NCBI RefSeq assembly: GCF_014750655.1
Contig: NZ_JABBXD010000003.1
Span: forward strand, 124,001-188,000
Source of the DNA: Salinimonas profundi
GTDB lineage: Bacteria; Pseudomonadota; Gammaproteobacteria; Enterobacterales; Alteromonadaceae
Direction of reading: 5' to 3'
Length of the DNA stretch: 64,000 nt
Below are positions 36,744 through 55,940 of this stretch, piece by piece. Each line of letters begins with the position of its first letter. Position 1 is the first letter of the stretch. The notes below the pieces were generated by a model, which searched no databases, had not been told where the DNA came from, and saw nothing but the letters and a program-made list of their open reading frames with translations. The position numbers and the translations under genes were made by a program.

Positions 36744-36893
36744 TTGAAAACTCCTCTGATAACCCGTGGCGGATACCACAAACTGAAAGACGAGCTGGAT
36801 TATTTATGGCGCGAGGAGCGGCCTGAGGTAACGCGCAAAGTTACCTGGGCGGCTAGCCTTGGTGACAGAAGTGAAAATGCAGACTTTGTATAA
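36744..36893 (+). pseudogene. greB: 5' fragment of host greB, cut by the island
   Basis: A TTG start opens a frame reading KTPLITRGGYHKLKDEL, then RKVTWAASLGDRSENAD, the conserved N-terminal coiled coil of transcript-cleavage factor GreB. It then leaves the family (F-V-stop) at 36891. The rest of the gene is found 18.7 kb away at 55596-55940. The fragment retains the acidic tip (GDRSENAD) but lacks half of the coiled coil and the whole C-terminal domain, so it cannot work as GreB. No good Shine-Dalgarno sequence is seen. Confidence 0.93.
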
Positions 36894-36894
36894 G

Positions 36895-36968
36895 AACCTC
36901 ATTATCCATACTACTACGATCCCCAAGACTGTTTTACATAAACTTATTTTTAGTATGCATACTAAAAA
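36895..36968. repeat. Left-end motifs of the island: inverted repeat and 22-bp palindrome
   Basis: AACCTCATT (36895-36903) and CATACTA (36907-36913) recur inverted at the right end (see 55570-55591). Further in, 36947-36968 is a perfect 22-bp palindrome centred on ATGCAT that contains TAGTATG/CATACTA again. Recurrence of this heptamer at both ends suggests recombinase-binding sites. The palindrome could instead terminate the minus-strand gene ending at 36990. Confidence 0.5.
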
Positions 36969-36989
36969 ATATACTATTTAAGAAATGCT

Positions 36990-38285
36990 TCAATCGATAC
37001 TGCGAACGGATAAAGTATCTGACTGAAAATTAAGATCTACACCAGCCGCCCATTTTTCGATGATTTCTGACATTGTTAAATCAAACCAATTAAACTCATT
37101 CTCGAAGAAATGATTACAGGTAAACGATTCAAGCAATGGTGTATCCACACTCACCGGTAAGAATTTTTCATAGACAATATTCCAACCACGACTTTTTGCT
37201 TTTGTCAGATGAACATCTATCTCTTTGGCAAACAGTTTATTTTTGATGTATCCGGGAACGGGATTTTGATTAATCTGTGAAGAAACATTTAGCGCTCTTT
37301 GGTGCAAATAGTTGCTGATAACAGGAAGCTTAAAGTTTTTGGCAAGATATTTAAGGAGATTGTCGAGTTTCATCGATCTCTCAAAGGTAAAGTTAAACTC
37401 ATCCGCGTATGCTCTTGCGACATCGTATAGTAGAGATATTCTTGATCTTTCGACAATATGCTGAAAGTCTTCAATGTCCGATTTTGTAAGTTTTCGTTCA
37501 CAAATATCTGCGTATAAAGCGGTTTGCAGTTCCATTGCATTGTTGTAGTTCGAAAACCGGAGGTACATGCCGGAAGCGTATGTCTCCATTACTGGACTGT
37601 TGTAATTGACGCGCAGGCAAATGCTTTGCTTACTTTCATGAAACTTGAACTTTTTCTCGCGAATGAGATGAAATTCTTTCTTCAATGCTTTGATCTCTTC
37701 GCTTCTTTCTTCAATAACCAGAATGGCACCTTTTTCAACAAACTTTGCAATAAAGGCTCTATCTGTTTGTTGGCAACCAGTTAAACTAAATCGATTTGCA
37801 TCGCAGTATAAAGGTCCACCATCTTCTCTGTGATATTCAGACAGTAAGAGAAACAAAGCTAACTTTTCCATGTAGCTTAATTCGTTACAGTCAAAAGTTG
37901 AGTTGTATAAGTCTTCTGTACAACTGTCTAAAACCTCAGTAAACCTGGCGAGTACGTTTTTCTCTTGCTCTTCAAGACAGCCTTCGCACGTATAACCATA
38001 AGAATTAGCCTGTTCTTTGAAATTAGAACGGATCCTTATCGTCTCACCTCTCCCACAACTCTTACATCGGAAATTTGACAAATCGCAGCAGTAACTTGAT
38101 TTTGAACGTGCCAGCGATGCGATACTAGTAATTGCGGGTACAAATTCATTATTGATATCAGTCACTTTGTATTTGAAGCTCATTTCTTCAAATTCAACGT
38201 CCCAATACATCATCAGAGCTTCAGCCTCCGCCGTCGTGACTGTCTGCTCAAAACATACGTACCCTCGGTTAGTTGTAGATAACAT
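36990..38285 (-). CDS. Unknown protein with a treble zinc-ribbon motif (island cargo)
   Basis: I do not recognise this 431-residue protein. Residues about 66-101 hold CCDLSNFRCKSCGRGE and, 22 residues on, CEGC, a likely zinc-binding CxxC...CxxC module. The remainder is predicted helical and soluble, with no enzyme motif I can name. AGAGG lies 8 bases before the ATG. It is the only minus-strand gene at the left end and diverges from the restriction operon over two dyads, so it may be a regulator, a defence protein or part of the mobility machinery. Confidence 0.75.
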   Translation of the reverse strand: MLSTTNRGYVCFEQTVTTAEAEALMMYWDVEFEEMSFKYKVTDINNEFVPAITSIASLARSKSSYCCDLSNFRCKSCGRGETIRIRSNFKEQANSYGYTCEGCLEEQEKNVLARFTEVLDSCTEDLYNSTFDCNELSYMEKLALFLLLSEYHREDGGPLYCDANRFSLTGCQQTDRAFIAKFVEKGAILVIEERSEEIKALKKEFHLIREKKFKFHESKQSICLRVNYNSPVMETYASGMYLRFSNYNNAMELQTALYADICERKLTKSDIEDFQHIVERSRISLLYDVARAYADEFNFTFERSMKLDNLLKYLAKNFKLPVISNYLHQRALNVSSQINQNPVPGYIKNKLFAKEIDVHLTKAKSRGWNIVYEKFLPVSVDTPLLESFTCNHFFENEFNWFDLTMSEIIEKWAAGVDLNFQSDTLSVRSID

Positions 38286-38330
38286 TATATTTGCCTCTTG
38301 TAAGATTAGTGATTAAGACCCATTCAACTG

Positions 38331-38402
38331 CATCATTTGAAATGATGTCTTGAATTCAGTCTAAAACAAGAGTAATTTAAATGCATCATTCAAAATGGTG
38401 CA
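38331..38402. promoter_or_regulatory. Two related dyads in the divergent promoter of the restriction operon
   Basis: Dyad 1 (38331-38347) is a perfect inverted repeat, CATCATTT-G-AAATGATG. Dyad 2 (38382-38402) is TGCATCATT-CAA-AATGGTGCA, with one mismatch, and reaches to 3 bases before the ATG at 38406. Both share TGCATCATT and their centres are about 53 bases apart. They look like operators for one regulator that would control the restriction operon, and perhaps the divergent gene. The regulator is not identified. Confidence 0.6.
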
Positions 38403-38405
38403 GCT

Positions 38406-38996
38406 ATGAGAACGACTTTAAAAGCCGTCGCGAACGTGTCGCTAGGTCACCCGTTTCGAGGAAAAATAGAACCTGACAAATATGGTAACGGTAACGTCAT
38501 ACAGTTTAAGAATATTGCTGAGGATGGGGGGCTGCTTTGGCATGATGTACAACGCACCCAAGTGAAGAGCAGGCTTGAGGTAAACTGGCTTCAGCTGGGC
38601 GATATAATACTTCCAAATAGAGGAGCGAGGATCAGGGCCACTTGCCTTCTCAACCTTCCTGACAACACAGTTACGACACCACATTTTTATAACATAAGGG
38701 TTTGCGATCCATGCATAGATCCTTTGTTTTTAACTTGGCAAATCAACCAAAAGCCCACACAGCGCTATTTTGAGAAAACCGCCGAGGGCTCACGTCAACT
38801 GAGCTTAAGAAAAAGTATTGTTGAAGATATTGAAATAGTTATTCCAAGCATCGCTGAACAACAAAGCATCATAAATATCTATGCTGCGGCTCAGAGAGAA
38901 AAGGAGATATATACTGAGTTGCTTCAAAATAGAGCCACGCATTTAGACTGTATAGCTAAACATATACTGGAACCAAGTCAAACTTGTAAGGGGTAG
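38406..38996 (+). CDS. HsdS-like protein with a single target-recognition domain
   Basis: This 196-residue protein looks like half of a type I specificity subunit. It has one recognition domain (GHPFRGKIEPDKYGNGNVIQ ... WLQLGDIILPNRG ... GSRQLSLRKSIVEDIEIVIP) and then one conserved helix (IAEQQSIINIYAAAQREKEIYTELL). Full HsdS proteins have two of each. Half-size HsdS proteins can work as dimers. It starts inside dyad 2's reach with no good ribosome-binding site and is followed 4 bases later by hsdM. It could give the methylase an alternative specificity or act as a regulator. Confidence 0.8.
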   Translation: MRTTLKAVANVSLGHPFRGKIEPDKYGNGNVIQFKNIAEDGGLLWHDVQRTQVKSRLEVNWLQLGDIILPNRGARIRATCLLNLPDNTVTTPHFYNIRVCDPCIDPLFLTWQINQKPTQRYFEKTAEGSRQLSLRKSIVEDIEIVIPSIAEQQSIINIYAAAQREKEIYTELLQNRATHLDCIAKHILEPSQTCKG

Positions 38997-39000
38997 AGAG

Positions 39001-40518
39001 ATGTCCACAAAAGCTATAGACCAAAGTGACATTAACAAAGCAGTATGGGCTGCCTGCGATACGTTCCGTGGCGTGATCAGTGCTGACACTTACAAAGACT
39101 TCATTCTGACGATGTTGTTTCTAAAATACATCTCTGATTTATACAAAGACGAATACAACAAGTTGGTCGCACAATATGGAGAGAATCCTGAGCTCATCCG
39201 CGCCATGATGTCGAAACAGCGTTTCGTGTTACCAGAAGGTGCAAGCTTCTGGGACCTCTATGAGAAGCGCTATGAAGCAGGCAATGGTGAACGTATTGAT
39301 AAAGCCCTTCATGCTATTGAAGAAGCGAACGGCAGTAAGCTTAAAAATGTATTCCAGGATATCAGTTTTAATACTGACCGACTTGGGCAGGAAAAGCAAA
39401 AGAACGACTTGCTTCGTCATTTACTGGATGACTTCGGTAAAGACATTTTAGATTTGAGCTCCGAGCGAGTGGGTAGTTTAGACATCATCGGTAATGCCTA
39501 TGAATACCTCATCAAACATTTCGCGGCGGGTAGCGGTGCCACCGCAGGTGAATATTACACCCCCCCAGAGGTATCGACGCTATTAGCAACAGTGTTAGAG
39601 CCTGTCGAAGGTGACCAAATATGTGACCCATGTACAGGCAGTGGCTCATTGCTTCTAAAATGTGGCGCTATGGTTCGCAAGAATTCAGGCTCGAAGAAAT
39701 ATGCGCTGTTCGGTCAGGAAGCGATAGGTTCAACATGGGCCCTGGCAAAAATGAATATGTTTCTTCACGGAGAGGACAATCATCGTATTGAATGGGGAGA
39801 CACAATCCGCAATCCATTATTAAAAGAAAAAGGCGGCTCGCGCTTAATTCATTTTGATGTGGTAACCGCAAACCCTCCCTTTAGTCTGGACAAATGGGGT
39901 TTTGAAGACGCAAGTAATGATCATTTTGGCCGATTCAGAAGGGGAATACCGCCGAAAACCAAAGGTGACTACGCCTTCATAAGCCACATGATCGAAACCC
40001 TTAAACCTGAAACAGGCAGAATGGGTGTAGTTGTGCCTCATGGCGTTCTTTTCCGCGCATCTTCAGAAGGGAAAATTCGCCAGCAACTGATTGAAGAAAA
40101 TCTACTGGATACCGTTATCGGCCTGCCAGAAAAGCTCTTCTTTGGAACAGGTATTCCTGCTGCCATCCTGGTTTTCAAGAAACAGAAAACCGATAACAAC
40201 GTCCTGTTTATTGATGCAAGCCGTGAGTTCAAAGCAGGTAAAAACCAAAACCAGTTAACACCTGAGAATATTCAAAAGATTATCGATACCTACAAAGCGC
40301 GAGAAAGCGTTGATAAGTATGCTTATCTTGCAAGTTTCGATGAGATTAAAGAGAACGATTTTAACCTTAATATTCCTCGCTATGTGGATACTTTTGAAAA
40401 AGAAGCCGATATCGATTTGGTCGCAGTGCGTAATGAGCGTGTACAGCTTAAAGGCGAGCTGCAAACCCTTGAAGCAGAAATGGAAGGCTACTTAAAGGAA
40501 TTGGGTTATGGTGCCTAG
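39001..40518 (+). CDS. hsdM: Type I restriction-modification methylase subunit HsdM
   Basis: This 505-residue N6-adenine methyltransferase has the N-terminal HsdM domain (about 10-150) and the catalytic domain with the AdoMet motif DPCTGSGS (209-216) and the catalytic NPPF (291-294). GEYYTPPEV precedes motif I, as usual. The C-terminus ends in a coiled coil. All motifs are intact, so methylation is possible if a specificity subunit is present. Its end overlaps the hsdS start by 11 bases. Confidence 0.96.
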   Translation: MSTKAIDQSDINKAVWAACDTFRGVISADTYKDFILTMLFLKYISDLYKDEYNKLVAQYGENPELIRAMMSKQRFVLPEGASFWDLYEKRYEAGNGERIDKALHAIEEANGSKLKNVFQDISFNTDRLGQEKQKNDLLRHLLDDFGKDILDLSSERVGSLDIIGNAYEYLIKHFAAGSGATAGEYYTPPEVSTLLATVLEPVEGDQICDPCTGSGSLLLKCGAMVRKNSGSKKYALFGQEAIGSTWALAKMNMFLHGEDNHRIEWGDTIRNPLLKEKGGSRLIHFDVVTANPPFSLDKWGFEDASNDHFGRFRRGIPPKTKGDYAFISHMIETLKPETGRMGVVVPHGVLFRASSEGKIRQQLIEENLLDTVIGLPEKLFFGTGIPAAILVFKKQKTDNNVLFIDASREFKAGKNQNQLTPENIQKIIDTYKARESVDKYAYLASFDEIKENDFNLNIPRYVDTFEKEADIDLVAVRNERVQLKGELQTLEAEMEGYLKELGYGA

Positions 40519-41803
40519 TGACTGGAAAACGTTAACGCTTGGTGACCTAATCATCAATAGCGCTTTCGGGCCTTGATTTTCATCCGATTTGTATTCAGAA
40601 AAAGGGGCTATTGGAACTATACGTACCACTGACCTTTGTGATGAAGGAACAATAAATTATCAAACAATTCCTTACGCTAATTTAGATGTTAACGAATTCA
40701 GCTCACATATTCTTGAAAGTGGTGATTTACTAATTACCCGCTCTGGTTCGTGTGGCATCCCATGTATTTTTGAGAAACAAGAAAAGCCGATAGTTGCAGG
40801 AGCATTCCTAATAAGATTCAAACTTAAGGGTGATGTCGATCCTTCTTATCTACACTCGCTATTAAAATATGATGTGACACAGCATCACATTTCAAAAATG
40901 GCATCCGGGGGGGTACAAAAGAATCTTACAGGCACTAGTTTAAAGAAATTGAAACTACAGTTACCAGAGCTTTTAGAGCAACGTAAAGTCGCCAAAATCT
41001 TATCCACTTGGGATAAAGCGATTAGCGCTATCGAGCGCCTAATCGACAACAGCAAGCAGCAGAAAAAAGCTCTGATGCAGCAGCTGCTCACAGGCAAAAA
41101 ACGCCTACTTGATGATTCAGGTATGCCGTTTGAGGGAGAGTGGGAAGATAGGAAGCTTGAGGACATTTCTTCTTTGATGACCGATTACGTGGCTAATGGA
41201 AGTTTTCAATCATTGAGAGAAAATGTAAATGTTACAGAGAGTAAAGATTATGCATTGTATGTGAGGCTGGTTGATCTTCGTGCTGGACTCGGACATTCAG
41301 AGCAAAAATACGTAGATAAAGAAAGCTTCAATTTCCTGAAAAAATCCTGTCTACAGGGAGGCGAACTCCTGATGGCAAACATAGGTGCAAATGTTGGGGA
41401 GGTCTGGCAGATGCCTAACGTTGATCTACCAGCCACCCTAGCACCAAATATGCTCATGACCAAATTCAAAAGTTACATCGATAGTGGTTATGTATTTTTT
41501 TTTCTGGCAAGTGATTTTGGTCAAAACCGTATTTCTAAGGTAATTGCGGGAAGCGGTCATCCAAAAATCAATAAAACTGAGTTAAAACAAGTAAAAGTTT
41601 TATTACCACCTCTTAAAGAACAACAAAAAATCACCAAAGTTCTCATCAATGCCGGCAAAGAAATAGAGCTATTAGAGCGACAGCTTGCTGACCTAAAGCA
41701 AGAGAAAAAAGCGCTGATGCAACAACTATTAACAGGCAAGCGCAGAGTGAAAATTGATGATAAGGAAGTCGCACAATGTCAAAAGGCAAAAATCAACACG
41801 TAG
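40508..41803 (+). pseudogene. hsdS: Type I specificity subunit hsdS with in-frame stop at codon 23
   Basis: The natural start is the ATG at 40508, overlapping hsdM: VPSDWKTLTLGDLIINSAFGP, then TGA at 40574-40576, then FSSDLYSEKGAIGTIRTTDL in the same frame. HsdS proteins usually read FGPRFSS here, so one change from CGA (Arg) to TGA explains the stop. The rest is a full subunit with two recognition domains and two conserved helices (each ending KKALMQQLLTGK). Restart at the TTG at 40589 would give a 404-residue protein lacking the first 27 residues. No ribosome-binding site supports that. A sequencing error is possible. Confidence 0.85.
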
Positions 41804-42009
41804 TGAAGCACCCTGATGGCTGGGCAGTGAAAGGTGCGGGAAATAGCAAAGCCACGAAGGTTACCAATACTCAGCGAGAGGCTATAGATAGAGCTGAAGA
41901 TATAGCCAGGAATCAACGATCAGATACAAAAATACATGGAAGAGACGGCAAAATCAGGGCTGGTAATAGCTACGGTAATGATCCGCATCCGCCTAAAGAT
42001 AAAAAGTAA
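41776..42009 (+). CDS. DUF2188 family small protein
   Basis: This 77-residue protein is charged and Lys-rich. HVVKHPDGWAVKGAGNSKAT, then TQREAIDRAEDIARNQ and IHGRDGKIRAGNSYGNDPHPPKD, match the DUF2188 pattern (two beta strands, a helix, then HGRDGKI). It overlaps the 3' end of hsdS by 28 bases and precedes the nucleotidyltransferase gene by 8. Function unknown. Such proteins occur in restriction and other defence loci. Confidence 0.85.
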   Translation: MSKGKNQHVVKHPDGWAVKGAGNSKATKVTNTQREAIDRAEDIARNQRSDTKIHGRDGKIRAGNSYGNDPHPPKDKK

Positions 42010-42017
42010 GGACTTTC

Positions 42018-43292
42018 ATGACAACTTCGGAAATGTTCTCCAGCTTTCTAAGCAATCTAGCTATAAATAATGCTGGGGCAATTACTTCTAGGTATGAAGA
42101 AATCACATCAGCGCTTAATAAAAAATTTAGGGAGACCGAATCTAAGACTGCCAACAGTTTACAAGTCGGTTCATATGGACGCTGGACTGGGATTAAAGGT
42201 ATTTCCGATTTAGATATGCTCTTTGTCATGCCCGCATCTAAATGGGCCCTTTACGAGAATGGAAAGCAATCCAAGTTGCTAGACGATACTCGAGAAGCAA
42301 TCAAAGCCAGGTACCCCGCAACTACGGTAAAAAAAGACCGATTGGTTGTTCAAGTTGTTTACAACAATTTCATGGTAGAGGTTCAGCCTGTATTTGAACA
42401 AAGCGATGGTAGTTTTAAATATCCAGACACATACAATGGCGGCAGTTGGAAGATCACCAAACCTCGAGACGAAATAAGAGCAATGAAAGAATTTGTTGCT
42501 CAGAAAAACAAAAATCTTCGAAAACTATGCAAAATGGCCAGAGCTTGGAAAAACAAGCATGGGGTCGGCATGGGAGGACTACTAATTGATACCTTGGCAT
42601 ATAACTTTTTGAAATCCAGAACCGATTACGATAATCGTTCAACGGCGTATTATGACTGGATGTGCCGAGACTTCTTTCTTTACCTCTCAGAAGAGCCAAA
42701 TAAAGATTACTACCTCGCTCTAGGCAGTAATCAACGAGTAAGCGTTAAAAGTAAGTTTCAACGCAAAGCAAAAGAAGCGTATCAGCAGTGTTGTGATGCT
42801 ATTGCTGCTGAAGAAACTAATTCAGCAAACAAGAAATGGAAAAAAGTGTTTGGCCGCCCATTTCCTGCAGCCCAAACTGAAACTAAAGCAGCTAAGGCTT
42901 ATCGTGATACCGAACAGTTTATCGAAGACCTTTACCCAGTAGATGTTCGATTCAACCTAAAGCTTGAATGTGAGGTATCACAGAATGGCTTTAGAGTCGA
43001 ATTACTTCGTAACATGCTCTCCAGACGGCTAAAACTTGCACCTTCCAAGAGACTCGATTTTTACGTCACCGAGATAGATGTTCCTGGTGAATTTACCTTG
43101 AAGTGGAAAGTTTTAAATCGCGGGGCTGAAGCTGAGCGCAGAGACTGTATCAGAGGAAATATTGTTGCTGATGCAGGCTACAGGAAGTTGCGTGAGAGGA
43201 CGAGCTTCGCTGGTGAACATATAGTTGAATGTTACGCAATACAAAATGGCGTTGTAGTGGCGAAGGATAGGATTCACGTACCAATCCAGTGA
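42018..43292 (+). CDS. CBASS-like nucleotidyltransferase with AGS-C sensor domain
   Basis: This 424-residue enzyme has the CD-NTase core: GSYGRW at 51-56, the metal-binding DLD at 64-66, and a likely third carboxylate at Glu121 in VEVQPVF. Residues about 320-424 match the adenylyl/guanylyl-cyclase and SMODS C-terminal sensor domain (AGS-C): LKWKVLNRG, RDCIRGNI, GEHIVECYAIQNGVVVAKD. CD-NTases make cyclic oligonucleotide signals on phage infection. The effector is presumably the SLATT protein encoded 7 bases downstream. It has no Cap2/Cap3 ancillary genes. It is embedded between hsdS and hsdR in what looks like one operon. Confidence 0.88.
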   Translation: MTTSEMFSSFLSNLAINNAGAITSRYEEITSALNKKFRETESKTANSLQVGSYGRWTGIKGISDLDMLFVMPASKWALYENGKQSKLLDDTREAIKARYPATTVKKDRLVVQVVYNNFMVEVQPVFEQSDGSFKYPDTYNGGSWKITKPRDEIRAMKEFVAQKNKNLRKLCKMARAWKNKHGVGMGGLLIDTLAYNFLKSRTDYDNRSTAYYDWMCRDFFLYLSEEPNKDYYLALGSNQRVSVKSKFQRKAKEAYQQCCDAIAAEETNSANKKWKKVFGRPFPAAQTETKAAKAYRDTEQFIEDLYPVDVRFNLKLECEVSQNGFRVELLRNMLSRRLKLAPSKRLDFYVTEIDVPGEFTLKWKVLNRGAEAERRDCIRGNIVADAGYRKLRERTSFAGEHIVECYAIQNGVVVAKDRIHVPIQ

Positions 43293-43299
43293 GGTATTT

Positions 43300-43914
43300 A
43301 TGGAAAAAAACAATTTACTAAAACATATTGCAGAAACTGGCTATAACGTTGGTTACAGCGCAAAACTCCACTTTGCCAGTTTTGAAATGATAGAAAAGCT
43401 TCCAGGCTTGATTAGTTTTGTCTCGACCGCTTTCGGTATATATGCGTTGGCATTTTCTCAATTATCCACCAAATTCATGTCATGCACACTATTAGTACTT
43501 GGTCTTATCGGTTTATACATTACGATGAAAAATGGTGAAAAAGCCAATTATGAAGAGAAAGGTATCCTTCTAACTAACTTGTTCAATGAACTGAAGCATC
43601 TCTTGTCCGAAGCGGAGAAAACATCGTCTGATTCGAGTCTTATAACAAGCAAACTCCAGGACATTGAGTCTCGGTACAACACGAGTTGCGCTTCTCATCA
43701 TGTGATGTTCGCATCTTGGTTCGCACACTATAAGTTTTTTTGGGAACAACAAACTTCATGGATTGAAAAACACCGTTCATTTGGTTTTTTCAGAGACAAG
43801 GTTCCGTTAACTCTTTGGTTTTCACTTATCGTTTTAGTGATTTTAACCACATTTCATTACACCAGTTTGCTGGGAGTCTTTTGTCACCATTTGAATAATA
43901 ATTGTGGTAACTAA
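43300..43914 (+). CDS. SLATT-type membrane effector
   Basis: This 204-residue protein has two adjacent membrane helices (about 35-53 and 58-76) followed by a cytoplasmic helical region (77-165) and a third hydrophobic segment (about 169-191). This is the layout of SLATT domains, membrane effectors associated with nucleotide-sensing defence systems. They are thought to form pores or channels when activated. Its stop overlaps the hsdR start (TAATG), so it is translationally tied to hsdR. Confidence 0.8.
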   Translation: MEKNNLLKHIAETGYNVGYSAKLHFASFEMIEKLPGLISFVSTAFGIYALAFSQLSTKFMSCTLLVLGLIGLYITMKNGEKANYEEKGILLTNLFNELKHLLSEAEKTSSDSSLITSKLQDIESRYNTSCASHHVMFASWFAHYKFFWEQQTSWIEKHRSFGFFRDKVPLTLWFSLIVLVILTTFHYTSLLGVFCHHLNNNCGN

Positions 43915-46900
43915 TGAACGTCTCTAATGTAACTTTCCAAGAAGAATTCAGCGCCAAAATTCCGGCTCTAGCACTGCTAGCTAATTTGGGTTACACATAC
44001 CTGCCACCAAGCCAGTGTGAAGCGTTACGCGGCAACACTTTGGCGAACGAAAAAAAAAGTACCCATCAGGTTATTTTGCTATCTGTGATGCGAGCCTATT
44101 TAGCAAAGCAAACCTTTTCGTTGGCAGGGAAGCAGCATAAGCTATCAGAGGCAGGCATCAATAAGATTATCCATGAACTAAGCCCTGCAATGAACTTAGG
44201 TTTAAAGGCCGCTAACGAGAGGATCTACAACGCATTAATTTATGGTATTAGTGTTACTGAATTCATCGATGGTAAAAAAGCCTCACCCACCATTAAGCTT
44301 ATCGACTGGCAAAACATTAATAACAACCAGTTCCACTTTACTGAGGAATTTGTCGTTCAAAATGCAGAAGCTACAGGTAATCGAATCCCGGATATTGTAT
44401 GTTTTGTGAATGGTTTACCTCTTGTAGTCATCGAGGCGAAGCGCCCGGACTCTAATAAAGAGGGTAAATCAACCAACGCAGAAGCGGTCTCTCAGCATAT
44501 CCGAAATCAAGGCCAGGCTGAAATCCCTCATTTATATGCATTCAGCCAGTTGTTGCTTGCAATTAATGGACATGATGGCCTGTATGCAACTTGTGGAACA
44601 AAAGTTAAGTTCTGGGCGAAGTGGAAGGAAGAGCAAATACCTGAAGCCGAATTTGCCAGGTTAAAAAACCTCAAACTGAGCGATGAACAATTGGAAGGTC
44701 TCTTTCAGTATCGTCCTATTAAAGCAAAAGATGACTACCTGTCACTTGTGGCTGCCGGGGACTTGGCCGTAACCGATCAAGACCGTCTCATTATCAGTTT
44801 GTTGAGCCCAGAACGGCTATTAGATATCACTCGCTTTTTTACCTTATTCGATAAAAAAGCAGGCAAAATTGTTGCTCGGTATCAGCAGGTGTTCGGTATC
44901 AAGGCGCTGATCGAGCGAATTAATACATTCGATAACTCAGGCGCTCGAGAAGGTGGTGTTATCTGGCATACCACGGGCAGCGGAAAGTCTTTTACCATGG
45001 TGTTCTTATCAAAAGCGCTCATTTGGCTGGAAGAATTAGCGCAATGCCGCGTGATTATCGTGACTGACCGAGTGGACTTGGAAGATCAGCTAAGCCGCAC
45101 TTTTGCATCTGGTGGAGTATTAACTGACCGGGATAAAAAAGATGCAATGGCAACTACTGGGAAGCGTTTAGCCGAACAGATAGGTAAAGGAAATGAAAGG
45201 GTTATCTTTTCGATAATCAACAAGTTTGGCTCCGCGATTAAGTACAAAGAATGCTTCAATGACAGCCCGAATATTATTGTCCTGGTTGACGAGGGTCACC
45301 GTAGTCAAAATGGTGAAAATAATATCCGGATGCAACAGACTCTGCCAAAAGCAGCCTACATCGCTTTCACAGGCACGCCGCTGTTAAAAGAAGATAAGAC
45401 CGAGAACAAGTTCGGAAAGATCATTCACTCCTACACTATGCAGCAAGCTGTTGAAGATAAGACCGTCACACCTTTGCTGTACGAAGAGCGCATCCCTGAG
45501 CTGAACGTTAACGACAAAGCCATTGATGCCTGGTTCGAACGCAGCACCAGTAAGCTGACTGACGACCAAAAGTCTGATTTAAAAAAGAAGTTTTCACAGA
45601 AAGGTCAGATTTATCAAACTGAAGGTCGCATCGAGTTAATCGCCTATGATATCGCCGATCATTTTCAGAACTTCAAGCAACAAGGCCTAAAGGGTCAGTT
45701 AGCATGTGACTCTAAGGCCTCTGCAATACGCTATAAGAAAGCTTTAGATAAAATAGGTACGGTAACTTCAGTTGTGACGATGTCGGCTCCAGATACTCGC
45801 GAGGGGCATGAAACTGTAGACCAGGAAAGTAAAGACATCGTCCAGAACTGGTGGAAGGCTAACGTCAATAAAATGGACGAGAAGGCCTATACCAAGGCAA
45901 TTATCGAAGAATATGAAAGGGACGACGGCCCAGACATCATGATAGTGGTCGATAAGTTACTGACGGGCTTTGATGAACCCAAAAACACAGTATTGTATAT
46001 CGATAAACCACTCAAAGAGCACAACCTCATCCAAGCAATCGCCCGTGTAAACCGTCTGCACAGTAAAAAGCAGTTTGGTTACTTAATAGATTACCGGGGC
46101 ATTTTGAAAGAACTTGATACCACTATTGAAAGGTATCAAGACCTTGCTGAACGTACTCAAGGCGGATTTGATATTGAGGATCTTAAAGGTTTGTATAACC
46201 GAATGGATACTGAGTACAAGAAGCTACCGGGGTTACACGGTGATTTGTGGGCAATTTTCGATGGCGTAAAAAACAAGCAAGATGGCCCGGCACTTCGCCA
46301 GGCGCTAGCGCCGAAGGTGCAGGAAATCGACGGCAAGCTTGTTGATACCAACCTGAAAAAGCGTGATGACTTTTATTCTGTGCTGATTTCATATTCAAAT
46401 TGCATGAAAGTAGCCCTGCAATCAGCTACCTATTTTGAAGACAAGTCATTTGATAATAAACGTGACGTATATAAACGTGATCTGAAAATGTTTATCGGTT
46501 TGCGCAAACAAGTTCGTGAAGATGCAGACGAAACGATTAATTACGATGAGTACGCGGAAGACATCAGAAGCCTGCTAGACAAGCATATAGCTGGTATAGA
46601 AGTTAAAGAGCCAGGTGGGGCGTATTTAGTCGGGAATCTAGGCAAAGACGTCAAACCACACGAGATGAGCGATGTTGAGGCCCGTAACCAAACTGACAAG
46701 ATTACTGGTCGAATCACGAAAATGATTGAGCAGGATCTGGCGGATGATCCATATGCTCAGGAATATTTTTCGAAGATGCTGAAGAAGGCTATTGAAGATG
46801 CCAGAGCCATGTTTGATGCTCCGGTTAAGCAATACATCTTATTCGCTGACTTTGAACAGGAAGTTAAAGAACGTAAAGTTGCTGACCTTCCTAAAGACTT

Positions 46901-48025: not shown

Positions 48026-48065
48026 TCTAGCAAACCCAAAATAAGAATTTGTTTAAGAGAACACA

Positions 48066-48542: not shown

Positions 48543-48872
48543 TGTCTCTTGAACCGAAGTAAGCCTACTCTTATTCCAATTCTACATTATAACTGCATAG
48601 ACGATTCAATAAGAGACTGTGCTTACTTGCAAATGCATATAAATGAAAAAACCACCTGTAGGTGGCTTTTCCTCCCTCAACTTGCAAGTCGCTTTGCCTG
48701 CATAGTCTACGGGTGAGTTCAATATACTATAATTGAACTCGGCTACTTGCACAATGAGTTATTAGGGATTACAAAAAATACAGATTAAATCTAAACTGGC
48801 ACTCGCACCAAAAAAACTGGATAACTGTCAGCTCGAGTCTGAGCTAGTACACCTTAGTTCGTTACGTAACGA
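48543..48872. other. Non-coding gap with terminator, dyad and palindromes
   Basis: No gene is seen in 330 bp. A hairpin with T's lies at 48648-48670 (CCACC-TGTA-GGTGG followed by CTTTT) and can end the greB transcript. ACTTGCAAGT (48680-48689) is a palindrome. 48715-48740 is a perfect inverted repeat (9-base arms GAGTTCAAT/ATTGAACTC, 8-base centre). TCGTTACGTAACGA (48859-48872) is a 14-bp palindrome directly at the end of the minus-strand gene. The middle dyad could be a regulator site. Confidence 0.55.
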
Positions 48873-49307
48873 TCAGATTTCTATAATTCCTTTCACGTTC
48901 AAGCTTTCGATTTCTCCTTTAAGCTCATCACTTAGTTCTCCAACAAATAAAATTTTTGAATTTCTTGGAGCGCTCTTTAGGGCTTTTTTCACTTTTACTT
49001 TCGTTGGTGTTGGACCTGCTACTACTTCTTGAATTTTAAGAATGCTGTTATCTGATTCAACGGGAAGAGAATTTAAAACATCTAAAACAACATTCCCAAT
49101 CAACGATAAAGAAACCTTCCCGTTCTTAAACTCTCCTCCGGCCCACCCAACATAAACAACTTTCTTATCAATATAAGTTTTATAAACTTGATAAACAGTT
49201 CTCGATTCCATTGGAAGTTTATATTTTAGTTTCAATTGAAACTCTAACCCTGCACTAGCGACAGCGTTACTTATCAAATAAGATTTAATTAATGCCATCT
49301 TTTTCAT
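48873..49307 (-). CDS. Unknown 144-residue partner of the DUF6602-like protein
   Basis: I do not recognise this protein. It is Lys- and Val-rich, with alternating strand-like segments (TVYQVYKTYIDKKVVYVGWAGG) in the first half and a basic linker then a small alpha/beta end (KILFVGELSDELKGEIESL) in the second. It overlaps the upstream gene by 23 bases, so the two products are probably made together and may act together. It is very AT-rich. Confidence 0.65.
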   Translation of the reverse strand: MKKMALIKSYLISNAVASAGLEFQLKLKYKLPMESRTVYQVYKTYIDKKVVYVGWAGGEFKNGKVSLSLIGNVVLDVLNSLPVESDNSILKIQEVVAGPTPTKVKVKKALKSAPRNSKILFVGELSDELKGEIESLNVKGIIEI

Positions 49308-50703
49308 TCCAAAGAAAACTTAACAAATTTTCAAACTGTGTCTCTTCCCTTGATCTCATGTGATCACTAAAATACTTAAAAAGTTCGCGATAACTTTTAG
49401 ATATTCTTATCGGTGTGCAATCGTCAGCTATCTCAATAAATCCTTTTTCATTTAATTTATCAATGGTGTAAAGCACTTTTTCTCTATGAAATTCATATTC
49501 TGCATCTGTAATTTTATCTTCGTAAAAACAAATTAGAGAAGCATCTAACAATTCCGATTTCATAGCTCTATACTCAATTCCTTTGATGTCGGTACAGTAG
49601 ATCATTAAAATTGTTAAATAAAGGATAGGTTCTGCGTTAAGGATAAGTTCAGTAAATATTTCTTCAGCATTTTCATCACCGATTGATTCACTATCTTCCT
49701 GTTCCTCTGTATTGTATTCAAATTCTGGTCGATTACTGAGTTGGGTGCTTAAATCTGTACCCTTTGATGAAAGTAGATCTCTTTGAATTACATGGTGGAG
49801 AAATGCAGGTGGGGATAACGTTAGGTCACGTAATTTTAGCCTATTGTGTAAAAATCCGACCCAACCACTATCAATTCCATCAGCTTTAAGAGAGTATCCT
49901 GAAATGTTGTATTGCAGCATAGTGCTAGCGTACTGAGGTGAACCTATTCTTCTCATTACCTGTTCTAGCAGTTGGTTTATTATGAACCGTATAGAGTGTA
50001 TATCCTCTTTAATAGCAACTGCATTACAATTTTCTTTCGGTATAGAAACCCCATCTAAGTCTTTTACTACTGCAATTTTATTAGTACTTATTGCTTCAGG
50101 TAAGTAATAACTATTGGAGTTTGCTCCTTCCTTAGAGGCATACCAATTTTGTAGGTGCTCTTTCGTTGTATTCAACTCTTGCCCAAAATACGCAAATATA
50201 TATGTTTCTGGTGCAACCATTTGTTTGAAAGAAAAATATTCGGATGCGTTTAGTTCTGACTTTCTGGTTTTAAAAAAATATGACTCGTAAGTATGAATTA
50301 CTGAATCGTCCACAAACGTTGGTTCAAGTTCCTTAACAGACTTCGAGTTTTCCAACGCTTTTATTAAATTATCTTTATCTAATTTAGACTTAACCTCTAT
50401 TGTTGCAATTACTCCCTCAATTAGATAAACGTCTGCAGCCCCAAATGTTTTGAGAATAGGGAATTCTCTTCTATAAATAATGATGTCGACTTGTTTTGAT
50501 CTTCTGCCATGCTGGTCAATTATTTGACCGCTTCCAATTGATATTGAGCTAGGAAGAAACTGCTCTAAAATGTCTCTTATGAAACTCTCTCTTGCATCTC
50601 CGAGTATAGTCGAATGGTCTGAAACAGACGCACCAACTTCAAAAGATACTTCAATCATTTTCGAAATTGTCTTAATCCAATCGTCGATAGCATTTTTACT
50701 CAA
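49285..50703 (-). CDS. DUF6602-like protein with putative PD-(D/E)xK nuclease core
   Basis: This 472-residue soluble protein begins with a domain resembling DUF6602. Residues 56-110 contain IGSGQIIDQHGRRSKQVDII and later IATIEVKSKLDK, giving Asp73, Glu103 and Lys105 in the spacing of a PD-(D/E)xK nuclease. The C-terminal 150 residues are acidic then helical, possibly a winged-helix end (YTIDKLNEKGFIEIADD). Its position in a defence-rich island suggests an anti-phage effector. That is inference. It is preceded by a 113-bp AT-rich spacer. Confidence 0.7.
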   Translation of the reverse strand: MSKNAIDDWIKTISKMIEVSFEVGASVSDHSTILGDARESFIRDILEQFLPSSISIGSGQIIDQHGRRSKQVDIIIYRREFPILKTFGAADVYLIEGVIATIEVKSKLDKDNLIKALENSKSVKELEPTFVDDSVIHTYESYFFKTRKSELNASEYFSFKQMVAPETYIFAYFGQELNTTKEHLQNWYASKEGANSNSYYLPEAISTNKIAVVKDLDGVSIPKENCNAVAIKEDIHSIRFIINQLLEQVMRRIGSPQYASTMLQYNISGYSLKADGIDSGWVGFLHNRLKLRDLTLSPPAFLHHVIQRDLLSSKGTDLSTQLSNRPEFEYNTEEQEDSESIGDENAEEIFTELILNAEPILYLTILMIYCTDIKGIEYRAMKSELLDASLICFYEDKITDAEYEFHREKVLYTIDKLNEKGFIEIADDCTPIRISKSYRELFKYFSDHMRSREETQFENLLSFLWNEKDGIN

Positions 50704-50816
50704 ACTACAATCCTTTTAATCTCAATATTGGTTTTCAAATAATCCATAAAAACATTATATAGTTTTTCTCCGTATCTAAAAGACTCTTTAATCTTTGAAT
50801 TTTAATGCTTTTTATA

Positions 50817-51410
50817 CTATAAATACCGCAGAGCTTTTTTTAACGCATCCACAGTTCCAGGCTTAAAAACTACTTTCCCACTGTCATCAGTCATCTCCCC
50901 AAACTCTGTGGTTGTGAGATACCATTTTTTCATGAAAGAATCTGACAATATATAATCGAGTGCTCGCCTCTCGATGGGATTCAACCTCTCAAATTCGCTG
51001 ATTGGTTCACCGTGGTCATAAACGTGAACAACTTTGTTGGGTGGCACAATCTCATTCACTTTTTGTTTCGTCTCAGCCAGCTCAGCAGCCATCATTTGCA
51101 CTAATAGTCGATGCTTCGGGCTTTTGATTTCATCAATCCAATTTTCAGTAACTTTTGCTTTAGCTGCCTTGGCATTGTTCTGTGCGAAACACTCAATCAA
51201 AGCCCGATACTTTTCACCAGACTTATTCCGTATACTTTGTGCTTTTGGAACACCTCTATGAGCACCGATACGAGCAATAGTTGAAACTGAGAAATCATTT
51301 ATCCCCTGTTTGACCTGTTCACCGCATACCTCATAAATCGCCTCAAGTGTTACTTGTACCTTTTGACTTGAGTTAATTTTTAGTTGGTCTAATAGCTCTT
51401 CTGGTTTCAT
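50817..51410 (-). CDS. gmtX: Gamma-Mobile-Trio protein GmtX
   Basis: This 197-residue protein is the third gene of the recombinase operon, one base after gmtZ. An N-terminal region resembling helix-turn-helix (FSVSTIARIGAHRGVPKAQS) suggests DNA binding. The C-terminal part has PIERRALDYILSDSFMKKW. GmtX proteins accompany GmtY and GmtZ in GMT islands. Their biochemical role was not established as far as I know. The name rests on operon position, length and the two recombinase partners. Confidence 0.75.
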   Translation of the reverse strand: MKPEELLDQLKINSSQKVQVTLEAIYEVCGEQVKQGINDFSVSTIARIGAHRGVPKAQSIRNKSGEKYRALIECFAQNNAKAAKAKVTENWIDEIKSPKHRLLVQMMAAELAETKQKVNEIVPPNKVVHVYDHGEPISEFERLNPIERRALDYILSDSFMKKWYLTTTEFGEMTDDSGKVVFKPGTVDALKKALRYL

Positions 51411-51411
51411 A

Positions 51412-54168
51412 TTAATTCAAAGCTTGAGAGGGTTTGTGCGTCAGCAGGTTAATATCAGTTTGGGTAATGCGTTCATCCTCGCCCAGTTCAGAAAACTTGA
51501 TAGCTCCGGATACAACCTCGTTAACACGCTGCCAGGTTTTTAAACGGGACTTTAACAATTGAACCATTTGATTCCCAGCTTCTAACTGCATGTTTTCAGT
51601 TAACATGAAAAGAGAAGGCGCTAGATTGTTGATATGAGCCATTCTATCTAAAAGCTGAGACCTCGGGACAATTGCTAATGACGCGTTTGCAGATTCGAAT
51701 ATCGTTGCGTTCTCGCATACTTCATGGAGCTGCTGGAGTGGCGATACTTCATCAATCTCTATCTGTAATTCAGCCTCAGGCTGTCTGAGCAACGCGAATT
51801 CATTTGTGTCTGATTCAATACTTGCGTGCGTGAGAGCTTGTGTCTGCTTTACTAACTTGTATGTTGCCTGCAGATCACAGAGAAACATGTCCATTTTCTT
51901 CGCCGCACTTTCATATTCTGATTCAAGTTTCCTCTGATCAATTTCAAGTTGCTCGCGAAGTTCGGTATCAAATGCTTTATTTTGGATTTCGTGAAAATAC
52001 TCTTCTTGGTCTAGTTTATTGATTTTTCTTTCTAGCACATCAATTTTGTGAGCCAGTTCGGCGCAAATGTCAGACTGCAAGTTGGCTTGAAGCAGGATCT
52101 CATTCGCCAGGGAGGTAAGTCCTCCGAGAAATGCAGGTCCAGTCATAAAGTGACGACACCTGACACAATTCTGCTGGCCTAAGTACCCACTTGTTACATG
52201 CGCGCGCAGTTGAGAGGAACCGATTTCTTCGCCTCCATCTTCACAGCGACTCGCCCCGTAAGGACAAATGCCATAATCGCGGAACATGAAATTGCCAGCG
52301 GGGATATCGTTAGATAGAGAGCTAAGTAACTCATCATTGTTAGCCACTAACTGATTTTTTACTTCTTCGATCTTATTTGACTCTATTTGGATTTGGGTTG
52401 CCCGGGCCTTTTCTTTTAATGCTAACTTTTCTCCCTTCTCCAACCTTTCACGTATACCTTGCTGAGTGACCTTACAGTAGTAAATCGACATCACTATTGA
52501 TGAATGCCCGACTATCTTCATAACTACTTCAACTGGCATTCCCATTTCCATGACGTACGCAGTGATCAAGCTAACTCGCATGGAGTGGGGAGTGTACTGC
52601 GACTTATAATGATTGAGCGTGAAGCCTTTACTACCAGAGGCCAAAGTAGCCAATTTCAGTGACTTTGGCTGAATATGATAAAGAGCTGCAGCAAGACGAG
52701 GCGTCAGGGCGTTTCCAACATTGGATGGTTCAATATCTCCAAATGCCCGAAAGAGAAAACAGTTTACGCCTTTTTGTTTGCGCTGGGTCTCATTGAGGTT
52801 TGTGCGAATGCATTTCATCCATGGTGTAGGTGAGGAAAGTGGATTGTATTTTTGCTGCCATTTTCGGAGCTTTACAAGCCAATAGGCAAGATCTTCTGGA
52901 ATCCACGGAATAATATATCCTTCTCCGCGATTACTTGTTTTATTCGTGGTGATGAACATTCCAAGTTGATCATCTTTCATTCGTCGGATGAATGATTGCT
53001 GCGAGGTAAACCCTGCTATGTCGGACTTATTTTTTTCCCAAATGATTTTTCCAGTATCACTCACCTCAGCAATAAATTGATCGGCTTCACCTGAATCGTT
53101 ATATGCGATTTGCCGTCCTCTTAACGGCACTTTCGTAAGTGCGTAGGTGTGTATCCAGCTTATTGGCTGCCACAAGAAATATTGATTATGGACTTGCTTA
53201 TACACGCAGTCCGCATCTAAGAAATCAATCTGAGATTTTTTAACCTTTATCCAATCGGCATCAAAGCTGTGCAGATGCTTTAAATCTCTGAACGATTTCG
53301 CGCTTTCCGGGATTATCCAGGATTGGGCTTTCTTTACGAAGTGATATTGAAGACAAGGCTTTGTCGATTCTGAACGCTTTGGAGAGGTAACCGTTTGAAT
53401 GTTCATCATCAACGCAAAGGGATTTCTAGCCTCCATCACCCTTACAATTTCGCCGGTCTCCGGATCTTCTTCCGTTAAGTGATGGGTTATCACGTACTCG
53501 AGAAACTCATTTACAGCGATAATGACACTTCTTCGCATGTTGTCGGTTTTCAGTTTTTCGAGCTCTAGTTTGAATGGCTTGATGTTGGGCTTTTCTTTGG
53601 TAAGAAATGCTTCGGGAGATGGGCTATTGTCATATTTTTCAATGTAGTAACGCACAAACCGACAGAGATAGTTTATTTTCGACTCACCACCAAGAGCAAT
53701 TTTCATGAACTCTCTGATTCTATCTGCCCATAAATAATACTCTGCTTGAATAAAATCCGGTTTGAAAGGCTCATCTTTCCCAAGGAAAACATACCAATTT
53801 TTCCACTCCGTCTCATAAACGCCTTGAGGATCTAGAGGTATTCTTTCATCACCTGATTCTTTTACGTAACGACTGTAAGCAGCTTTGGAGCTTAACTTTA
53901 GAGGCTGAATTAATCTTGTCAGCTCAGCATAGGTGTAGGGAATGGGCATATCCAGTAAGTCGTAGTAGCTTATCCACTCTGAGGGAAACATTCTCTCAGG
54001 ATGTGCTGGCAATCCGGTGATCTGCTTATATTTCTGCCTATATTCAACGGAGTTCCGAATCCCATAATGTTTACAAATCATCTTCACATCAGCGAGACAA
54101 GAGCATCTGGTCGGGATATTTACGGCACCTGGATTTTCAAAGGTTTGAATATCTTTTTTAAGCATCAT
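51412..54168 (-). CDS. gmtZ: Gamma-Mobile-Trio large tyrosine recombinase GmtZ
   Basis: This 918-residue protein has a phage-integrase-type catalytic domain near residues 340-570, with TPHSMRVSLITAYVMEMG (HxxR) and VGHSSIVMSIYYCK (His and nucleophile Tyr). A cysteine cluster follows (CPYGASRCEDGG near 634 and CVRCRHF near 670), probably binding zinc, and then a long coiled coil (about 690-790). The size and the zinc/coiled-coil tail set it apart from ordinary integrases. It overlaps gmtY by 11 bases. Confidence 0.82.
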   Translation of the reverse strand: MMLKKDIQTFENPGAVNIPTRCSCLADVKMICKHYGIRNSVEYRQKYKQITGLPAHPERMFPSEWISYYDLLDMPIPYTYAELTRLIQPLKLSSKAAYSRYVKESGDERIPLDPQGVYETEWKNWYVFLGKDEPFKPDFIQAEYYLWADRIREFMKIALGGESKINYLCRFVRYYIEKYDNSPSPEAFLTKEKPNIKPFKLELEKLKTDNMRRSVIIAVNEFLEYVITHHLTEEDPETGEIVRVMEARNPFALMMNIQTVTSPKRSESTKPCLQYHFVKKAQSWIIPESAKSFRDLKHLHSFDADWIKVKKSQIDFLDADCVYKQVHNQYFLWQPISWIHTYALTKVPLRGRQIAYNDSGEADQFIAEVSDTGKIIWEKNKSDIAGFTSQQSFIRRMKDDQLGMFITTNKTSNRGEGYIIPWIPEDLAYWLVKLRKWQQKYNPLSSPTPWMKCIRTNLNETQRKQKGVNCFLFRAFGDIEPSNVGNALTPRLAAALYHIQPKSLKLATLASGSKGFTLNHYKSQYTPHSMRVSLITAYVMEMGMPVEVVMKIVGHSSIVMSIYYCKVTQQGIRERLEKGEKLALKEKARATQIQIESNKIEEVKNQLVANNDELLSSLSNDIPAGNFMFRDYGICPYGASRCEDGGEEIGSSQLRAHVTSGYLGQQNCVRCRHFMTGPAFLGGLTSLANEILLQANLQSDICAELAHKIDVLERKINKLDQEEYFHEIQNKAFDTELREQLEIDQRKLESEYESAAKKMDMFLCDLQATYKLVKQTQALTHASIESDTNEFALLRQPEAELQIEIDEVSPLQQLHEVCENATIFESANASLAIVPRSQLLDRMAHINNLAPSLFMLTENMQLEAGNQMVQLLKSRLKTWQRVNEVVSGAIKFSELGEDERITQTDINLLTHKPSQALN

Positions 54169-55486
54169 GTGCCTTCTTTAAGTAGTCTCTGACGTCATCT
54201 GAAGTCGGTTGAATATATACCAAACATGAAAAAGGACTTTTATGATGCATCGCTTTTTGAATTTCTACTTGTGTCAGACCCTGTTTGCGCAGCCTGTAAC
54301 CATAAGCATGGCGATGTCCATGTTCTGTTGTCCCGTACTCCTTTTTACAAACAAGACCAATACGTTCAACAGCATTTTTGTGAAGTCTTTGGTAATTTTT
54401 GATAGTTTCAGGCTGGCCTGAACTATTAGTGAACGCGAAGGGATGCGGGTCGCTTTTAGGTGGCTCCACACGTTGATATTTCAGATAATTTGCCCAAACC
54501 AAGAGAAATTCCGAAGCCTTCTCAGCTGGGCTAAAAATGACTTCAAAGAAATACTGCTTACTTGTTAACAATGGAGCCTTCCATCCAGCAAAAAGTCGTT
54601 CAGTATTTCTATATTGAGTTCTGGGTTTGTACCTGGTCGTTTTAAGAAGATACTCGCTTCTGTTAGCAAAACTCGGATCAGGAGAGGCACCATACTCCGG
54701 ATGATATACTCGCACCAATGCTTCATTTTTATGAATTGGATGCAAAGTGATATCACCAACAAAAAGGTGGAATACTTCGCTTTTCCTCAAGCCCCCATAG
54801 TGCAGTAACATCGTTATTGCCTGCGATTTAAAATCTTGCTTACCCCTTTTACTAAACCCTGATTCTAAAAGTGAATCAATTTTGTCTTTTGGAAACTGTA
54901 CAACCTTTTCTTGTCTGATGACGGGCTCCAACAAACTGTTGATTTGCCGTACTTGCTGATTTTTTATGTACGCTTCACTTTTAGAAGATAAATGATTGAG
55001 AAAGACGTTAGCCTGCTTATTATAGTAAGCACACCAGTTAAGCCTGACTTCAACCGAAGTTGCTTTCCTGAACGGATTTATTCGCGAAGCTTCATAACCA
55101 TCTTGTAGTGCTAAGTAATCAGTGTAATGAGTTATGTGGTGCAAAATATTATTGGCATCTGGTATTTTTCGAGCTTGCCAAAATAGGCCCGACTTATCGT
55201 CAACACTGTCGTAATCAATGGTGCCTGTTACCAGCACCTTCGAGAATTCCCTTAACAGTTTTGTAGATTGTTCATAAGCAGATTCATTTGCGTTGATAAA
55301 GCTAATGAGAAGTCTGACGGAAAAAAGCGATCTTTCTTTCCAAGATTCACTCTTAAAATAATTTTCTGCCAGATATCTCAGATGTGAGATCACAAGCCCT
55401 TTGTCTGTCAACAAAGCAGGAAGCAGTAACTCCTTTCCAACCTCAGAACTGTGATAGCTTACTTTGACTTTATGAACGTAGGGCAT
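54158..55486 (-). CDS. gmtY: Gamma-Mobile-Trio tyrosine recombinase GmtY
   Basis: This 442-residue site-specific recombinase has catalytic residues Arg234 (GGLRKSEV), His389 and Arg392 (EHGHRHAYGYRLR), His415 and Tyr424 (MHHKSPFSCLVYIQ). It is the first gene of the gmtYZX operon and begins about 110 bp from the right end of the island, so the operon points inward. With GmtZ it is expected to catalyse integration and excision at greB. Confidence 0.85.
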   Translation of the reverse strand: MPYVHKVKVSYHSSEVGKELLLPALLTDKGLVISHLRYLAENYFKSESWKERSLFSVRLLISFINANESAYEQSTKLLREFSKVLVTGTIDYDSVDDKSGLFWQARKIPDANNILHHITHYTDYLALQDGYEASRINPFRKATSVEVRLNWCAYYNKQANVFLNHLSSKSEAYIKNQQVRQINSLLEPVIRQEKVVQFPKDKIDSLLESGFSKRGKQDFKSQAITMLLHYGGLRKSEVFHLFVGDITLHPIHKNEALVRVYHPEYGASPDPSFANRSEYLLKTTRYKPRTQYRNTERLFAGWKAPLLTSKQYFFEVIFSPAEKASEFLLVWANYLKYQRVEPPKSDPHPFAFTNSSGQPETIKNYQRLHKNAVERIGLVCKKEYGTTEHGHRHAYGYRLRKQGLTQVEIQKAMHHKSPFSCLVYIQPTSDDVRDYLKKAHDA

Positions 55487-55569
55487 TTGCGAAATAGTAC
55501 ATATTAAGTAGTGTTTACCAATCCAGTATACACATATTGATTCTATTTGAAGTACTTTAGGTTCTAAAA

Positions 55570-55591
55570 TAGTATGCTTTTGAGTGGGGTT
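55570..55591. repeat. Right-end inverted-repeat motifs of the island
   Basis: TAGTATG (55570-55576) and AGTGGGGTT (55583-55591) are the inverted counterparts of CATACTA and AACCTCATT at the left end (7 of 9 matches in the second motif; the spacers differ by 3 bases). They end 4 bases before the first greB codon of the right half. Confidence 0.5.
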
Positions 55592-55595
55592 ATAA

Positions 55596-55940
55596 TATCA
55601 ATACAACAAAAAACGCTTACGCGAGATAGATCGTCGTGTACGCTATCTGCGTAAGTGCTTAGAACGCTTAAAAGCAATTGACTACAACCCGGAGCAGGAA
55701 GGTCGCGTATTTTTCGGCGCCTGGGTCGAGATAGAAAATGACGAAGGAAAGACGCTAACCCTGCGCATCGCCGGTTACGATGAGATATTCGGTCGCAAAG
55801 ATTATATCTCAGTGGACTCACCGATGGCGCGAGCCCTGTTGGGCAAGTACCCTGATGATGATGTGGTAGTTCGCACCGAAGCAGGAGTATTTGAGTGGTG
55901 GATAAACCGTATCTGGTACGATAAAACAGATAAACTATAA
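55596..55940 (+). pseudogene. greB: 3' remnant of host greB
   Basis: The frame reads YQYNKKRLREIDRRVRYLRK and continues through GRVFFGAWVEIENDEG and GRKDYISVDSPMARALLG to a normal stop at 55938-55940. It continues exactly where the 5' fragment at 36744-36893 stops and has the composition of the host, not the island. It lacks any start codon at its 5' edge. Precise excision of the island would restore a greB of about 161 codons. Confidence 0.93.

Follow-up and report, generated by a model that had tools for sequence, protein, structure and literature searches.

A Gamma-Mobile-Trio island that splits greB and carries the only complete greB of its host genome

How can a mobile element afford to break a conserved housekeeping gene? 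Site-specific elements usually pick tRNA genes or the ends of genes, where insertion is harmless. A different choice is seen in a stretch of 64,000 nucleotides from Salinimonas profundi (contig NZ_JABBXD010000003.1, positions 124,001 to 188,000), hereafter the window, in which greB, the gene of a conserved transcription factor, lies in two pieces on either side of an island. It is very probable, from the sequence comparisons described below, that a Gamma-Mobile-Trio (GMT) island broke the host greB after codon 47 and survives by means of its complete, diverged greB, the only one in the cell. One clade of recombinases cuts the catalytic heart of this transcription factor in many genera, with a complete copy present each time, so that the locus is one of many replicates in a natural experiment on the ways in which a damaging target can be afforded.

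The 5' part of the host greB occupies positions 36744-36884 of the forward strand and consists of a TTG start and 47 codons, terminating in ..GDRSENAD; 5' fragments in relatives also stop near residue 47. The 3' part, at 55596-55940 on the same strand, runs in frame from codon 48 to the stop codon, begins with the residues YQYNKK and matches GreB at residues 47-155. In G004, the nearest relative whose site is empty, greB is continuous over the junction, and this genome aligns with the window at 90% on the left flank and at 80-90% on the right. The two fragments had been predicted to be one gene, and this is borne out by the empty site and by their junction, which yields an uninterrupted GreB of 161 residues. 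Compared with the empty site, the window thus displays insertion in a housekeeping gene, a trait of disrupt-and-replace elements. The original prediction had also placed an island of 18.7 kb between the halves, and the inserted DNA indeed measures 18,711 bp (36885-55595), with a G+C content of 40.7% against 46-48% in the flanks. The position given for the break, 36893, was about 9 nt too far, the last host base being 36884, while the resumption at 55596 was correct.

The insert is a GMT island, a class reportedly defined in a Nat Microbiol 2024 paper. All three marker genes, which lie on the reverse strand, exceed their curated cut-offs: gmtX (50817-51410; NF040692, 224 bits, cut-off 40), gmtZ, encoding a large tyrosine recombinase (51412-54168; NF047926, 794 bits, cut-off 600), and gmtY, encoding another tyrosine recombinase (54158-55486; NF040693, 539 bits, cut-off 340). 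Defence or offence cargo, a further trait of GMT islands, is represented by a type I restriction-modification system and a cyclic oligonucleotide-based antiphage signalling system (CBASS). The island resembles known GMT islands in gmtX, gmtY, gmtZ and defence-system cargo, and differs in belonging to a clade that has greB as its target and carries a greB. The carried gene was correctly predicted as a complete, diverged greB at 48066-48542 (forward strand, GTG start, 158 residues), as it scores 242.9 bits against TIGR01461, with a cut-off of 171.05. It provides the complete divergent copy of the target that is another trait of disrupt-and-replace elements. The window genome has four matches in the GreB search, and among those listed are the island copy, the 3' fragment and a GreA. 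The fourth ranks below these, so that no other complete greB is present; the 5' fragment was read directly in the window.

The same arrangement recurs far beyond this genome. In the window's own genus, GmtY exceeds its cut-off in 4 of 59 genomes, the window's included, and two of the 59 are at the island stage. In both of these, the window genome and G010, the break in greB falls at the same codon, and their islands differ in cargo and in the complete greB that they carry. A search of the order returned GmtY at an E-value of 1e-60 or better in 17 of 394 genomes, and a search of the class returned it in 4 of 369, the window genome being counted in both. A profile built from eight GmtYs of greB sites and run against named genomes yielded 59 loci, and extended the greB-site islands to Acinetobacter, Pseudomonas, Marinobacter, Shewanella, Vibrio, Marinomonas, Methylomonas and others. 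Altogether, greB is split near codon 47 in 55 genomes, and each of the 55 holds exactly one complete greB. The match of the 3' fragment begins at residue 42-47 in 54 of them and at residue 32 in one (G228), and several of these matches extend a few codons into the island. The 5' fragment was also detected in 52 of the 55, and the gmtY that led to the genome adjoins the broken greB in 53. All three greB pieces share one contig in 33 genomes, where the complete copy invariably lies between the fragments (33/33) and island length ranges from 11.7 to 97.8 kb, with a median of 20.1 kb. The search for further islands in greB, with or without a copy, strongly supports the prediction that the element breaks the gene and supplies a substitute. 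Chance is not a sensible reading, because the same codon is split and one complete greB is kept in all 55 genomes.

Two copies of greB are not the usual state. Among 98 relatives taken as a control, the 93 greB matches above the cut-off came from 93 different genomes, none with two. The loci found with the profile led to 58 searched genomes (L159 was left out), seven of which are not among the 55. One of these carries a scar (G811), four have the island at other sites (G820, G822, G823 and G824), G866 has no long fragment, and the seventh is G812, a metagenome-assembled genome of Methyloprofundus (L119, L257). In G812 the island is accompanied by a greB fragment truncated at a contig end, and a second, apparently intact greB scores 170.1 bits, just under the cut-off; perhaps this genome is a mixed bin.

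The ends of the island bear on its movement. The right terminal repeat (55570-55595) bears TAGTATG and GGGGTTATAA. At the left end, a 6-bp spacer (TTTGTA, 36885-36890), foreign to greB and absent here from the empty site of G004, precedes the inverted counterparts of these motifs (36891-36913, TAAGAACC ... CATACTA), which recur across loci. This layout, a 6-bp spacer followed by the repeat, was found in 50 of the 51 left ends read, with varied spacers; 52 ends had been entered, L140 was missed by the pattern, and L134 is without a recognisable left end. The imperfect inverted repeats with a 6-bp spacer that characterise strand-biased circularizing elements are thus present both at these junctions and at the joint of a circle. 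The circle comes from Halomonas sp. THAF12, in which one island is integrated in pTHAF12_a. The record pTHAF12_b (NZ_CP045401.1, L207; 47,894 bp) is the same island in circular form, 100% identical at every base save the 6-bp joint. The same six bases border the integrated copy at one of its ends, and no replication gene is found among the 44 listed features of pTHAF12_b. The simplest reading is that pTHAF12_b, deposited as a plasmid, represents an excised circle of a GMT island, although an assembly artefact is possible. In Methylomonas sp. LW13 (L174), the native greB has a frameshift at precisely the insertion codon, and the chromosome holds a GMT island with an intact greB at another place; the frameshift looks like an excision scar. 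Tn6283, in the available text on it, rarely leaves empty donor sites, and these are sometimes scarred (PMC5991714). The expectation that clean excision restores the host gene holds in principle, while the 6-bp spacer, the Methylomonas scar and the Tn6283 sites suggest that restoration may be rare. A separate idea, that the spacers are records of earlier greB insertions, was unsupported: the first bases resemble a tyrosine codon in 10 of 50, where 6.9 would be expected (p 0.15).

A mechanism can be proposed from these elements. The GMT recombinases would recognise the DNA that encodes the conserved catalytic tip of GreB (RSENAD/E). The excised circle would then insert at these codons, after codon 47, and destroy the host greB. 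The carried greB would be expressed and functional and would supply GreB; its frame is intact, and the ratio of nonsynonymous to synonymous substitution rates (dN/dS) is low in related islands. Selection against the loss of GreB would keep the copy wherever greB is broken, and carriers without it would disappear. Finally, a later collapse of the island could leave the carried greB in place as the resident gene, so that a housekeeping gene is displaced over time. Such islands could act as 'break-and-rescue' drivers by which greB has been repeatedly displaced across Gammaproteobacteria, with part of the greB diversity consisting of domesticated rescue copies; this wider proposal is put forward tentatively, with chances slightly short of even.

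Possible traces of the last step are found in the window's genus. Seven genomes with a low-scoring greB were re-examined, together with G004 and G043. In six of the seven the single greB is of the island type, and the apparent after-stage thus amounts to at least 6 of 59 genomes; the seventh, G011, has the native type. In G043 only a GreA was seen and greB was not found; this is a 96% complete draft, and a gap may be responsible. According to the original prediction, contrary evidence would be relatives that keep the island-type greB at some fixed locus unrelated to this one. The six residents instead occupy the native locus, next to the FKBP gene found ahead of native greB. Four of them (G006, G012, G015 and G045; L264, L267, L266 and L263) are flipped relative to the FKBP gene, as in the G010 island, and two (G016 and G051) are oriented like native greB, which is also how the window island copy lies. 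In G051 (L261), about 12 codons of the native greB start are retained just upstream of the resident (score 56, reached by none of 200 shuffles, the highest of which scored 37). A decayed remnant of the native start lies upstream of the resident in G016 (L262; score 38, none of 200 shuffles, highest 36). In the GreB tree, native greBs of the genus, 26 in number, make up a single clade (support 96). The window island copy groups with the residents of G051 and G016 (97), and another set (98) unites the four flipped residents with island copies from G010 and Vibrionaceae. The GreB trees and the GmtY tree of 70 sequences are quick trees, and the positions used for the GreB tree that typed the split copies, for dN/dS and for distances came from a profile truncated by twelve wrong-strand loci; searches independent of the profile agree on the placements.

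The explanation that best survives as a rival concerns these residents only. They could be ordinary greB variation or products of unrelated gene transfer rather than GMT traces, a possibility that deserves serious weight even though it is the less likely one. It is consistent with the surroundings, since only stray motif matches, and neither GMT genes nor clear GMT ends, occur within 3.5 kb around the residents, and four of the six have no native remnant. Yet the residents fall within clades of island copies and outside the clade of native greBs of their genus, occupy the native locus with one or two fossil native starts, and have orientations that fit the respective island type. Given their position at the native locus, with one clear and one faint native remnant, replacement by an island copy is therefore favoured. 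The original prediction also held that internal deletions of the cargo would be costly; the residents suggest that everything in the island except greB may be dispensable, and that replacement copies may become the resident gene. This could explain foreign copies of a vertically inherited gene at its own locus.

A second rival concerns the carried gene itself, which might be a passenger or accessory with a role of its own, for example in island transcription or defence, its match to the target being incidental. The islands at other sites are relevant here. The GmtYs of the greB islands form one clade (9/9 rows, support 100/99), and in the tree of 70 GmtYs they fall within a clade of 62 rows. 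Four members of this clade sit at other sites and still carry greB (L117, L147 with L176, pTHAF12_a and pNY8896), as a passenger could. In one of them, Stutzerimonas stutzeri 95A6 (G820; L147, L176), the island lies outside greB, and the genome has two complete copies, an intact native greB and, next to a GMT-like left end, one of the island type. Two further clade members, L156 and L161, have contig ends close by. A match occurs in 147 plasmid records, seven of which were inspected: the four in the clade have greB directly after gmtX, and the three outside it have no greB listed within 9 kb of gmtY in a gene table that is incomplete. Against this rival, a complete greB is present in all 55 genomes with a broken greB, at several positions, and no extra greB accompanies GMT islands of other clades, neither on those three plasmids nor in six of six genomes, each with a single complete greB (G022, G031, G305, G186, G144 and G126), nor is one found in L149-L151. 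A passenger would not track the insertion site, and this role is consequently unlikely. Nor do GMT islands at non-greB sites carry a copy of their own target: a translated search gave no matches at 11 loci, with three of three positive controls recovered, where L147, L149 and L161 offered 2.5-2.8 kb of island only and L156 and L161 about 0.4 kb of host side. At a twelfth locus, in G144, two short matches of 34-40 residues were taken for a repeat.

The position of the carried greB within the islands also bears on its origin. In 39 of the 44 genomes in which it shares a contig with the 3' fragment, it lies on the gmt strand, opposite to host greB, and in 36 of the 44 it lies on that strand 4.8-8.7 kb from the fragment. 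It was read directly after gmtX in G010 and the four plasmid records. It is located at most 100 bp from the left end in G816, G818 and G825 (Pseudomonas group) and in G819 (Hahella), and deep inside in others. The window is among the five exceptions to the usual strand. Its nearest GmtY (L115, 79%) belongs to an island with the usual greB placement, and its own greB is of another type, lies beyond two cargo genes and is flipped relative to the usual layout. To judge from these layouts, the carried greB is acquired repeatedly by these islands; loss and regain at different places is what selection for having greB predicts.

The carried greB has, very improbably, mainly the function of a decoy, an internal attachment site for more insertions, rather than that of rescue. 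In favour of a decoy, the island copies keep the target codons: nine of them compared by eye with eight host pieces at these codons revealed no systematic recoding. Some split copies are moreover of the island type (L127, L130 and L169). However, a second pair of greB fragments is listed in none of the 55 genomes, and the copies are full-length, with low dN/dS in the four groups in which it was computed. The two Acinetobacter loci L127 and L130 have a tRNA-Ser upstream of greB, which is located downstream in other Acinetobacter, and are suggestive of serial insertion into the greB of an older island. Recoding of the carried copy as a form of immunity was considered and dropped on the same comparison of target codons. 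The island greB of Shewanella frigidimarina (L106) has the catalytic tip SDNAD in place of the usual SENAD. An assembly or pseudogene artefact, for which only the draft state of the window genome (30 contigs) speaks, is practically negligible, as the window lies inside one contig of 312 kb and the same arrangement occurs in the single-contig genomes G010 and G417 and in a 4.4 Mb contig of G228.

Several points weigh against the reading in which the islands break greB, rescue it and eventually replace it. The Pseudomonas islands L149, L150 and L151 belong to the clade and sit outside greB with none nearby. Their genomes hold only one greB each, and the copy is therefore not fixed in the element. 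This single greB (L254-L256; G822-G824) is of the type carried by Pseudomonas islands, and may be either native or a fixed rescue copy. Beside the four flipped residents, a search for a native remnant found none (5, 45, 48 and 45 of 60 shuffles were as good), and the second of the two remnants, in G016, is faint. On the GreB trees, transfer between residents and islands could have gone either way. In G828 and G829, the gmtY found is on another contig than the broken greB. The census genomes were reached through GmtY, and disruptions of greB by other means fall outside the sample. Distances between GmtYs correlate weakly with those between island GreBs (Spearman 0.15, p 0.018, 48 loci), and distances between island GreBs correlate more strongly with those between host GreBs (0.27, p 0.0005). 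The copy has therefore often been swapped or shared among related hosts, and strict co-inheritance of gmtY with its greB was not upheld. Finally, low dN/dS values are shared by the island copies and the split host pieces and cannot tell the two apart; as species divergence predates the insertions, a contrast in dN/dS could not serve as a sign of relaxed selection.

Disrupt-and-replace elements are already known, and the greB system is a new, unusually clear variant. The closest parallel is the recA mobile element (RME) of Vibrio, an island within recA that carries a divergent complete recA and excises as a circle (PMC4405046; for V. parahaemolyticus, PMC4334540). The carried recA was shown to be functional (PMC4405046), and the element was reported from a few Vibrio strains (PMC4405046, PMC4334540). 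As far as the accessible text of these sources goes, the RME shares with the greB island a broken housekeeping gene, a divergent complete copy and, to judge from the record of a relative, excision as a circle, and differs in that its target is recA, it is not described as a GMT island and no resident-copy stage is mentioned. The window element is not an RME proper, since both its target and its carried gene are greB. Tn6283, whose insertion target is bcp, brings along a related peroxidase, for which partial compensation of bcp was proposed (PMC5991714, PMC10214605). In the portions of these papers at hand, it and other strand-biased circularizing elements resemble the greB island in their pair of tyrosine recombinases, in the inverted repeats at their ends and in the 6-bp spacer. 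Tn552-II is a tnpABC element with a homologue of its target, proposed as a possible rescue (PMC12486829); according to the text available, it differs in its host (Staphylococcus), its recombinases and its target of unknown role. In Clostridioides difficile, a 4.2 kb insert breaks the thymidylate synthase gene and holds another version of it (as cited in PMC4405046). The greB system differs from RME, Tn6283 and Tn552-II in target, recombinase family, breadth and traces of displacement. Among the titles and abstracts listed in literature searches, there was no earlier description of an island in greB; the paper defining GMT islands was outside their coverage, and a prior mention is therefore possible. 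The system can be seen as nature's counterpart of engineered rescue drives. Moreover, it offers a possible reason for the stable retention of defence-carrying GMT islands, as a cell with a broken greB depends on part of the island.

The remaining cargo of the window island includes the defence genes. From the left end, a protein of 431 residues with no family above its cut-off (36990-38285, reverse strand) is followed on the forward strand by a half-length hsdS-like open reading frame of 196 residues (38406-38996), the type I methyltransferase gene hsdM (39001-40518), the specificity subunit gene hsdS (40589-41803), a CBASS cyclase with SMODS and AGS_C domains (42018-43292), a CBASS two-helix membrane effector (SLATT_6, 43300-43914), the restriction subunit gene hsdR (43914-47207) and a YgjP-like metallopeptidase (47207-48025). 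The CBASS pair (42018-43914) is thus nested between the type I genes hsdS and hsdR. Between the island greB and gmtX, the reverse strand holds a small open reading frame without a family match (48873-49307) and a DUF6602 protein that is NucC/PD-(D/E)xK-like (49285-50703). Outside the island, at 59322-59585, an open reading frame of 87 residues has an N-terminus that gives the impression, and only the impression, of a double-glycine bacteriocin leader.

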